Below are positions 4,161 to 35,428 of a stretch of DNA of 64,000 nucleotides, one piece after another. The notes under the pieces are model-generated. The model was not told the origin of the DNA. It was given only the letters and a program-made list of their open reading frames with translations, and did not search any database. The stretch is from Methanolobus sp. WCC4 (GTDB lineage: Archaea > Halobacteriota > Methanosarcinia > Methanosarcinales > Methanosarcinaceae): assembly GCF_038022665.1 (NCBI RefSeq), contig NZ_CP150629.1, positions 1,160,480-1,224,479 of the forward strand. The letters run 5' to 3'. Every line of letters begins with the position of its first letter. Within the stretch, counting starts at the first letter, position 1. Made by a program: the position numbers and the translations under genes.

Positions 4161-4248
4161 GCGGGGGTTGCCCAGCCAGGCCAAAGGCGCTAGGTTGAGG
4201 GCCTAGTCTCGTAGGAGTTCGTGTGTTCGAATCACACCTCCCGCACCA
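4161..4248 (+). tRNA. tRNA-Leu(GAG), copy 1, CCA encoded
   Basis: The acceptor GCGGGGG (4161-4167) pairs with CTCCCGC (4238-4244), with one G-U pair. The discriminator A is at 4245 and CCA at 4246-4248. The anticodon stem CTAGG/CCTAG holds loop TTGAGGG, so the anticodon is GAG. The variable arm is long. The TATA-like TTTATATTTAG about 30 bases upstream suits an archaeal tRNA promoter. Confidence 0.95.
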
Positions 4249-4321: not shown

Positions 4322-4409
4322 GCGGGGGTTGCCCAGCCAGGCCAAAGGCGCTAGGTTGAGGGCCTAGTCTCGTAGGAGTTCGTGTGTTCGAATCACACCT
4401 CCCGCACCA
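4322..4409 (+). tRNA. tRNA-Leu(GAG), copy 2, identical to copy 1
   Basis: All 88 positions including the encoded CCA match the copy at 4161-4248 as read by eye. The two genes are separated by 73 bases of unrelated spacer, so the duplicated unit appears to be the tRNA itself, with only short extra similarity after the CCA (ATAT). The second copy lies just upstream of a divergent region and ends 148 bases before the stop of the convergent uppS. Confidence 0.95.
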
Positions 4410-33266: not shown

Positions 33267-34610
33267 ATGAAACTCTACAGCACAAATCTTAACGCGCCGG
33301 AAGTCAGCTTTGAGGAAGCCCTTATCACAGGACTTGCACCTGACAGGGGGCTTTACATGCCTCGCAGCCTTCCGAAATTCTCAAAGGAGGAGATCGATTC
33401 CTTTAAAGATGCACCGTATCCTGAGATAGCTTACAGGGTACTGAGCAAAGTACTCGAAGGCGAGGTAGATGACGAGTCACTGAGATCCCTCGTATATGAT
33501 GCTTACAACTATGACGTCCCTCTTGAGGAGGTTGACGAGAATACCTACATCATGAGGCTTGACAGGGGGCCAACTGCATCATTCAAGGATTTTGCAGCCC
33601 GCATGATGGCAAGGCTCATGCAGTACTATCTCAGCAAGGAGAACAGGAGCCTCACTATACTCACAGCCACATCCGGTGATACCGGCAGCGCGGTTGCAGA
33701 TGCCTTCTACGGTCTTGACAACATCAAGGTCATCGTACTCTTCCCGACAGACGAGGTATCCGACCGCCAGCGCAAGCAGATGACAACCCTTGGCAAGAAC
33801 ATCACCGCCATCTCTGTGGATGGCAAGTTCGATGACTGTCAGGCAATGGTGAAGCAGGCATTCGCAGATGAGGACCTTAAAGGTTTCAACCTCTCCTCGG
33901 CAAACTCCATCAACATTGGTCGCCTTGTGCCACAATCTATCTATTACGTCTACTCTTACGCAAAGCTCAGGAACTATCCTGAGGATATCATATTCTCTAT
34001 TCCCTCAGGTAACTTCGGTAACATGATGGGCTGTGTCCTGGCAAGGACCATGGGAATCCCTGTGAAAAAGATAATAGCATCCGTCAATGAGAATGACGAG
34101 GTGCCAGCCTTCCTGAACACAGGCGAGTACAGCAAGATCGAACCTTCAAGGAACTGTCTCTCCAATGCTATGAATGTGGGACACCCAAGCAACCTTGCAA
34201 GGCTCATCGCTGTCTATGATGGTGTCATGGACGAGACCGGTCATATCAGTAAAGAACCTGATATGGCAAAGCTCAGGAATGACATCTACTCCGGCTCCGT
34301 AACAGATGATGAGACAAAGGCAACCATCAAAGAGATCTACGAGAAATACGGCATCCTTATAGAACCACACGGTGCAGTTGGAATAAAGGGACTTCTTGAC
34401 TTCAGGGCCAGTACCGGCGACAACACTCTTGCTGTCACTCTGGAAACAGCAGACCCTGCCAAGTTCCCTGAGCATGTAAAGGCTGAGACTGGTGTTGAGC
34501 CTGAACTTCCTGAAAGCCTCAAAAAGATCGAGGCAAAGGAAGAGTTCATGGATTATCTCGGTACGGACTACGCAGGTTTCAAGAAATATCTTCAGGAAAA
34601 GCTCGGTTGA
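33267..34610 (+). CDS. thrC: threonine synthase
   Basis: The 447-residue PLP enzyme converts O-phosphohomoserine to threonine. The N-terminus MKLYSTNLNAPEVSFEEALI and GLAPDRGLYMP are typical of the fungal/E. coli-type enzyme. The PLP lysine lies in GPTASFKDFAARMMA and the phosphate-binding loop in TATSGDTGSAVADAFYG. A second block, SANSINIGRLVPQSIYYVY, is conserved. It is a stand-alone gene with its own terminator. Confidence 0.96.
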   Translation: MKLYSTNLNAPEVSFEEALITGLAPDRGLYMPRSLPKFSKEEIDSFKDAPYPEIAYRVLSKVLEGEVDDESLRSLVYDAYNYDVPLEEVDENTYIMRLDRGPTASFKDFAARMMARLMQYYLSKENRSLTILTATSGDTGSAVADAFYGLDNIKVIVLFPTDEVSDRQRKQMTTLGKNITAISVDGKFDDCQAMVKQAFADEDLKGFNLSSANSINIGRLVPQSIYYVYSYAKLRNYPEDIIFSIPSGNFGNMMGCVLARTMGIPVKKIIASVNENDEVPAFLNTGEYSKIEPSRNCLSNAMNVGHPSNLARLIAVYDGVMDETGHISKEPDMAKLRNDIYSGSVTDDETKATIKEIYEKYGILIEPHGAVGIKGLLDFRASTGDNTLAVTLETADPAKFPEHVKAETGVEPELPESLKKIEAKEEFMDYLGTDYAGFKKYLQEKLG

Positions 34611-34682: not shown

Positions 34683-34922
34683 ATGACCGATGATAGAAAC
34701 TGTTTCTCCGAAGGACGTGGCAAATACTTTGGTATCTGTACATCCTACCATCATTCCAAGGGTTGCAATTGTCCACAGTGTCCTTCCTATTCTGAAAAAG
34801 GAGTCTTTATGTTCTGTTCGAAAGGCCCTCGTCCGGATGTGAGTAAAAAGGGATGCCTCTGTTCAGGGTGTATAATACGCAGAAAATTCGGTCTTGAAGG
34901 AGATTACTTCTGTTCGGAGTGA
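34683..34922 (+). CDS. DUF2769-type small cysteine-rich protein
   Basis: The 79-residue protein has nine cysteines in a repeated CxxC scheme: CNCPQCPSY, FMFCSKG, GCLCSGCIIRRKFGL and YFCSE. This is the pattern of DUF2769, common in methanogens and likely metal-binding. The function is unknown. The ATG at 34683 is the only sensible start. Confidence 0.8.
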   Translation: MTDDRNCFSEGRGKYFGICTSYHHSKGCNCPQCPSYSEKGVFMFCSKGPRPDVSKKGCLCSGCIIRRKFGLEGDYFCSE

Positions 34923-35035
34923 TCTCTATGTGGTCTATTGACACATTATTTATCTGAATATTCGCCTCATCATTATGATAATCATTATATATTATAATAT
35001 AGATATATTAATATAGTAGAAAAAGATATTCTTAA

Positions 35036-35400
35036 TTGTGGCAGGAACTTCCCTCAGTGACTGCCCGCAAAGAAATAAACCATAAGGTGTTACGATATGG
35101 TTTTTCCTCCCAGAATTACCCGGTAAAAAAACGTAAAGAACGGAATTGGATTGCACGGAAATGCGAGCACGATGTCTCTCCCCTCTGCATCATAAAAACG
35201 AAATGCTCACATTTCCAATAACCGGGATAAAAAGGAAAGGAGTATGAGCGGCTAAGGAACGGGGTGAGATCGTCCGAAAGGACAAATGGAGTATGAGCAG
35301 ATCCGGGGCGTCATCCAGATTGTCAGGATGACGATGGGTTATTGTCGAACGGATCCTTAAAATTGCAATAAGGGGTTATTGTCAATTTCTTTTTCTATTT
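35036..35400 (+). ncRNA. candidate structured non-coding RNA of unknown family
   Basis: Between a TATA-rich stretch (34980-35025) and a T-rich end, about 360 bases without a credible ORF hold many pairings. These are GGCAG/CTGCC (35040-35044 with 35061-35065) and AACCATA/TATGGTT (35078-35084 with 35096-35102). CCCGGT/ACCGGG (35119-35124 with 35221-35226) encloses GGAAATG/CATTTCC (35157-35163 with 35210-35216), GAGCA/TGCTC (35165-35169 with 35204-35208) and GATG/CATC. Next come a GAAA tetraloop on GTCC/GGAC (35272-35283) and GATCCG/CGGATC (35300-35305 with 35350-35355) enclosing CGTCATCC/GGATGACG (35309-35316 with 35326-35333). A last hairpin CAATAA/TTATTG (35366-35381) before a T-rich tract could be the terminator. 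GGAGTATGAGC occurs twice (about 35239 and 35288). I do not recognise RNase P, SRP or a known riboswitch. Strand is inferred from the promoter and terminator. Confidence 0.5.
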
Positions 35401-35428
35401 TTTATAATGAATAGACGGTTCTATCACT

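Follow-up and report, generated by a model that had tools for sequence, protein, structure and literature searches.

The closest described counterparts of the RNA presented here come from the same genus. According to the main text of Li et al. 2015 (PMC5378194), dRNA-seq detected 195 sRNAs in M. psychrophilus, and nine conserved sRNAs of this organism are induced at 8 °C and have a common upstream 'cold box'. They resemble the present family in that several highly conserved sRNAs of one genus carry a common motif upstream of their promoters. However, that main text describes them without a structure, a family, a partner or complementarity. Another related system is that of the bacterial sponge RNAs, which likewise hold antisense blocks to one sRNA and several binding sites per RNA. 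The present family is unlike these in being multi-copy, long, highly structured and archaeal, and in having a promoter element that resembles the one of its proposed target. A full-text literature search on sponge RNAs and archaea found no example of an archaeal sponge RNA. For the proposed target itself, a possible counterpart is sRNA41 of Methanosarcina mazei, which is described as masking ribosome binding sites (PMC5867862).

The window analysed here, a stretch of 64,000 nucleotides from the complete 2.85-Mb chromosome of Methanolobus sp. WCC4, holds a structured RNA of about 350 nt at 35036–35400 on the forward strand, as are all features of the RNA and its promoter given below. Upstream of the RNA lie thrC, encoding threonine synthase (33267–34610), and a syntenic DUF2769 gene that is outside the RNA (34683–34922, forward strand; Pfam PF10967, E 6e-12). 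Relatives found by BLASTN and by a covariance model occupy the equivalent thrC/DUF2769 site: within the window's class, in other Methanolobus genomes, thrC is upstream of the RNA in 20 loci and a DUF2769 orthologue was found in 13 loci. The RNA had no match in Rfam 15 at the gathering threshold, and only chance-level matches appeared up to E 10. Its sole sense ORF of note, with 61 aa and a TTG start, is not conserved. A small protein-coding gene was rejected, since the longest ORFs vary in frame and length among the relatives, and the peptides following AUGAGC showed no conservation across the type I sequences. Elsewhere in the window, ARAGORN called two tRNA-Leu(gag) genes (4161–4248 and 4322–4409, 161 bp apart), which fall below the threshold of the Rfam tRNA model; both calls are possibly false.

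A conserved upstream promoter element, CCTCATCATTATGATAATCATTATATA (34965–34991), was recognised from the alignment of relatives and a promoter-pattern search. It is followed by a TATA-box region, ATATATTAATATAG (35004–35017), also conserved in the aligned relatives, with an expected start at about 35033–35040. In M. psychrophilus, BRE/TATA elements are reported about 19–22 nt upstream of start sites (main text of PMC5378194). The pattern made up of the upstream element and the TATA region, with up to three mismatches, was found in all 27 Methanolobus genomes, and the reversed control gave 0. At the sequence level, this own promoter is supported as driving the RNA independently. The U-rich 3' end (35386–35404) is, from its sequence, a likely terminator. 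Matches to the promoter pattern also occur ahead of protein-coding genes (L262, L263, L264, L272, L273 and L274), some of them recurrent between species, and the downstream genes are candidates for control by the common promoter element.

The BLASTN relatives of the RNA were confined to the genus, with 13 of 25 Methanolobus genomes and 0 of 15 others. A covariance model was built from 22 of these relatives, with the promoter left out, and the genome set searched comprised 112 Methanosarcinaceae genomes, namely 27 of Methanolobus and 85 others. Every one of the 27 Methanolobus genomes was matched by the model, and 97 candidate RNA loci were found in them, with between one and six per genome. 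The 85 other genomes gave a single match, at a locus that has no 3' module and lies in a related MAG on a short contig. The promoter motif was found 92–141 nt upstream of 69 of the 80 model matches; as the promoter is absent from the model, this set distance validates even the weak matches. A few model-only matches among the 97 loci, such as L229, are probably false. The family RNAs split into several sequence classes, of which the window's class (type I) keeps the site behind thrC. Some relatives, L216 and L226 and, by inspection, L265, L266, L269 and L271, retain the promoter and the 5' domain, and the 3' module is absent. In the last four, the region about 60–330 nt past the promoter match contains a GGUGGUACGAU hairpin as well as a long one with UCCCUC loops; this class may show a function of the 5' domain itself.

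Taken alone, the sequence has a minimum free energy that does not stand out from chance (z = -0.78), with 20 of 100 shuffled versions folding equally well. A fold no better than that of shuffles means that a comparison of relatives is needed to decide, and the energy was not used as evidence. This ordinary folding energy is what favours the view that the interval is not an RNA gene, and that it is a 3' untranslated region or a set of chance palindromes within an AT-rich spacer. Covariation was tested with a hand-built structure on 15 type I sequences (alignment A2). Changes on both sides were counted in 17 pairs; shuffles gave 6.7±1.8, with none of 500 reaching 17, and sliding the structure along the alignment gave 5–8. 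The structure paired 90% of the cells, compared with 31–41% when slid, although this percentage is biased upward because the structure was drawn from the tested sequences, and the count of both-side changes is the better evidence. These counts disfavour chance palindromes or a 3' untranslated region, and a conserved own promoter at a fixed distance, many loci per genome and the absence of ORF conservation speak in the same direction, which makes that view very improbable. That the interval 35036–35400 encodes a structured RNA belonging to a Methanolobus family is established by computation.

The best-supported helices are the 3' hairpin, the long central hairpin with its inner stem, and the 5' stem. 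The 5' hairpin, GGCA (35040–35043) with TGCC (35062–35065), is paired in 98.3% of cells and has one both-side-changed pair. It is followed at 35080–35100 by a hairpin CCATA/TATGG, paired in 93.3% of cells, which has a conserved loop with the family consensus GGUACGAU (here GUUACGAU); the loop sequence GGTACGATATGG was present within one mismatch in 61 of the 97 loci and in none of 97 shuffled ones. The long central hairpin, GGAAATGCGAGCA/TGCTCACATTTCC plus GATG/CATC (35157–35216), shows compensatory changes in seven pairs. In the alignments its apical loop UCCCCUC (35179–35185) is conserved as pyrimidine-rich, and a candidate pseudoknot between the UCCC of this loop and a downstream G-run, noticed by eye, is plausible. 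Eight both-side-changed pairs were counted in the 3' hairpin, CGTCATCC/GGATGACG (35309–35333), which stays intact at a predicted three-way junction discussed below. In other classes different palindromes take the place of this hairpin, and in some the stretch between the flanking blocks is without any hairpin. A long-range helix TTCATCC/GGATGAA was dropped, being paired in 55.8% of the type I alignment.

An earlier note on this DNA had proposed, from the letters alone, a structured RNA gene outside the known families in an interval free of credible ORFs, and had named an Rfam covariance search, a de novo covariance model of relatives and compensatory changes as ways to check it. The proposal is borne out by the missing Rfam match, the model matches in 27/27 Methanolobus genomes, the 17 both-side-changed pairs, the own promoter and the lack of any conserved ORF. 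All of the segments it had listed are present in the sequence, and its boundaries agree with the expected start site. The 7+5 bp stem it described (GGAAATG..CATTTCC with inner pairs) is the central hairpin that survives comparison, the GAAA loop is carried by GTCCGAAAGGAC, and both the last hairpin before the T-rich tract and the TATA-rich region upstream are there. The two enclosing long-range helices fared less well: CCCGGT (35119–35124) and ACCGGG (35221–35226) exist as segments, with a helix that can be formed by eye in some relatives only, and the helix between the likewise existing GATCCG (35300–35305) and CGGATC (35350–35355) is absent from most relatives.

The same note had pointed to a twice-used sequence, GGAGTATGAGC, which indeed occurs at 35239–35249 and 35288–35298. 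Beyond what it had claimed, sequence comparison shows that the window RNA belongs to a family that is multi-copy and genus-wide, and that the GGAGTATGAGC repeat and the GGGTTATTGTC blocks are antisense to a universal partner sRNA. The repeat corresponds to the two copies of block A (GGAGUAUGAGC), antisense to the partner, of which the second adjoins the 3' module as judged from block counts and cofolding. The GGGG at 35305–35308 pairs with CCCC of the partner in the predicted duplex. Block B, also antisense to the partner, is found as GGGUUAUUGUC at 35336–35346 and, within the terminal CAATAA/TTATTG hairpin, as GGGGUUAUUGUC at 35372–35383. Within one mismatch, block A was found in 87 of the 97 loci against 1 of 97 shuffled, and block B (GGGGTTATTGTC) in 89 against 0. 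Blocks A and B (GGGGUUAUUGUC) are the most conserved unpaired parts of the family RNAs, and GAGTATG-G and GTTATTGTC are invariant columns in the type I alignment. Many of the 97 loci hold at least two block copies, compared with a lone partner locus in each genome. One family RNA (L213, G021:C136) has four tandem AACAGGGTTATTGTCAA-like copies at its 3' end. In the genome presumed to be that of M. psychrophilus R15, the family RNAs L224, L225 and L227 contain a long run of GGA-rich, GUGGGGAAUGG-like repeats, which may give extra binding sites for the C-rich loop of the partner. Exact copies of GGGTTATTGTC number eight in the window's own genome, five in family RNAs, one antisense to the partner and two inside coding-like sequence; GGGTTATTGTC was rejected as an mRNA target motif.

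The partner came to light when the family-derived pattern GAGTATGAG..GGTTATTGTC was found to match also, on the antisense strand, one near-identical 35-bp locus in all 27 Methanolobus genomes. It is a single-copy sRNA with one locus per genome (27/27), located at about C1:2436979–2437050 in the genome of the window. Its transcript, 5'-GAUGAGCGGGUUAUCCUCUUUUUGACAAUAACCCCCACUCCCCAACCCGCUCAUACUCCACU, forms a hairpin whose stem has 11 bp and whose loop is C-rich. It had no match in Rfam, where loose thresholds gave chance-level hits only. A 44-nt block, TTTTTGACAATAACCCCCACTCCCCRACCCGCTCATACTCCACT, has one variable position (A/G) across the 27 genomes. The promoter consists of TCATNATNATGATGA, which is cold-box-like, and a TATA element, so oriented that the transcript is complementary to the family blocks; a simple regular expression found the upstream box in 26 of the 27 genomes and missed one. 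Both family-complementary blocks together are present in 27/27 Methanolobus genomes and in 0/85 other Methanosarcinaceae. By contrast, BLAST found the partner core in 98 of the 112 Methanosarcinaceae genomes (71 of the 85 outside Methanolobus), from 12 of 14 genera.

Among the 98 genomes with core matches, the subset inspected showed GAGCGGG..CCCGCUC hairpins with CCCCCACUCCCC in the loop. The partner appears, by sequence, to belong to a Methanosarcinaceae-wide group of C-rich hairpin sRNAs, which was absent from Rfam where tested. The Methanolobus genomes hold a second C-rich hairpin sRNA, and just one of the two has both family-complementary blocks. A further example, L288 (G000:C1:~2314650), with the homologues L290, L291 and L301 in other genera, has a GAGCGGG/CCCGCUC stem and a loop that repeats CCCC(C)ACUCCCC. 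The C-rich loop and ACUCC tail of the partner are of a type able to mask Shine-Dalgarno sequences, and it is conceivable, if somewhat doubtful, that the partner blocks such sites. Compared with sRNA41, the group of the partner consists of hairpin sRNAs with CCCCCACUCCCC loops and a potential for Shine-Dalgarno masking; the possible link between the two is a lead only.

In the cofolding prediction for the 3' module of the window and the partner of the same genome, GGAGUAUGAGC is engaged with the partner in an 11-bp helix, GGGG pairs with CCCC of the partner, and GGGUUAUUGUC makes up a further helix. The predicted complex is a three-way junction, in which two intermolecular helices surround the intact 3' hairpin. 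The ddG of the window module is -26.1 kcal/mol, compared with -8.6±3.5 for 200 shuffles (minimum -19.2). For 87 modules, the median ddG with the partner was -29.6; shuffled modules had -8.7, and pairing with the second C-rich sRNA of the genome gave -12.1. In these predictions, the binding of 85 of the 87 modules to the partner is stronger than that of any of 87 shuffles, and every module favours the partner over the second C-rich sRNA by at least 5 kcal/mol. The antisense relation of the 3' module to a conserved sRNA is established by computation, on the sequence, and the pairing very probably takes place in cells. No compensatory change was found between family and partner, both RNAs being invariant in Methanolobus, which leaves little to vary. 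Searches for the compensated motif gave few matches per genome in genus g21 (GGAGAATGAGC), some of which were the antisense of the sRNA itself, and in genus g12 (GGAATATGAGC) only that antisense and two coding-like places.

The U4/U6 snRNA pair has two intermolecular helices around an intact hairpin, and the predicted geometry here is alike; no sequence relation or splicing context exists, and no membership is claimed. This likeness leads to the idea that the two RNAs make up a stable working particle, in which the universal short RNA docks on structured RNAs. Besides the predicted junction with its intact hairpin, the idea draws on the 3' hairpin varying in sequence and keeping its form in most classes, and on the similar promoters of both RNAs. 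However, the hairpin is missing from between the blocks in some classes, no common protein partner is known, and we regard such a particle as unlikely. Similarly unlikely is a wider version, an archaeal two-RNA network in which a nearly invariant sRNA docks onto paralogous RNAs with variable 5' domains under similar, possibly cold-responsive promoters, giving modular particles or signal integration rather than a simple sponge. A further explanation is that the RNAs act independently, and that the complementarity is a relic of an inverted partner copy now used as a terminator or stability element. A common origin is plausible, as the module is the antisense of the 3' half of the partner. However, both blocks stay near-exact from genome to genome and class to class, in contrast to the freely diverging sequence between them, and a relic is quite improbable.

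The genome G040, which we take to be that of M. psychrophilus R15, was found to hold four family RNAs with the promoter and one partner, against the nine published sRNAs. A BLASTN search of this genome with one family RNA gave three full copies and one promoter match, and nine were not found. As the presumed R15 genome carries family RNAs and the partner, family transcripts have probably already been detected in M. psychrophilus. Judged from the main text of the published study (PMC5378194), the family promoter element CCTCATCATTATGATAATCATTATATA is probably the 'cold box', and the nine cold-box sRNAs probably include part of the present family; the family structure and the partner probably went unrecognised in that main text. 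Cold induction in Methanolobus sp. WCC4 itself is considered rather likely.

Taken as a whole, the best explanation, to which we give a probability of about 0.6, is that the multi-copy family RNAs pair with the partner and titrate it under a cold-linked promoter. The Methanolobus-specific structured RNAs would be transcribed from a conserved common promoter, and their 3' module (GGAGUAUGAGC, the G-run, a free hairpin and GGGGUUAUUGUC) would base-pair with the universal single-copy hairpin sRNA, the two intermolecular helices flanking the intact hairpin in a three-way junction. Being multi-copy, and many of them having repeated binding blocks, the family RNAs could titrate the partner as a sponge, and both sides would answer to a cold-linked promoter signal. 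For titration as the purpose of the pairing, taken separately, the odds are about even. The 5' domain, kept in relatives without the 3' module, points to a separate role for this domain, for which a plain sponge offers no explanation. The direction may also be reversed, with the partner as the regulator and the family RNAs as its targets: annealing of the partner to the 3' module would lead to decay or remodelling, and the active parts would be the 5' domains, which might for instance bind a protein. The conserved structure of the 5' domain, its retention in some relatives without the 3' module, and a single-copy, nearly invariant partner are in line with this. Nevertheless, the many family loci with repeated blocks, and a 3' module that is the best-conserved unpaired part, fit titration of the partner better, and the reversed direction seems improbable.

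Regulatory RNAs of archaea are poorly understood, and few of them have known partners. The present analysis offers a concrete RNA-RNA pair in every one of the 27 Methanolobus genomes searched, with blocks that can be mutated on both sides. It also suggests how the cold-induced 'cold box' sRNAs of M. psychrophilus, so far unexplained, might be understood. Should the proposed circuit prove to be real, it would rank among the early cases of archaeal RNA titration and would tie a cold response to control by C-rich sRNAs that are common to most of the Methanosarcinaceae genera searched.
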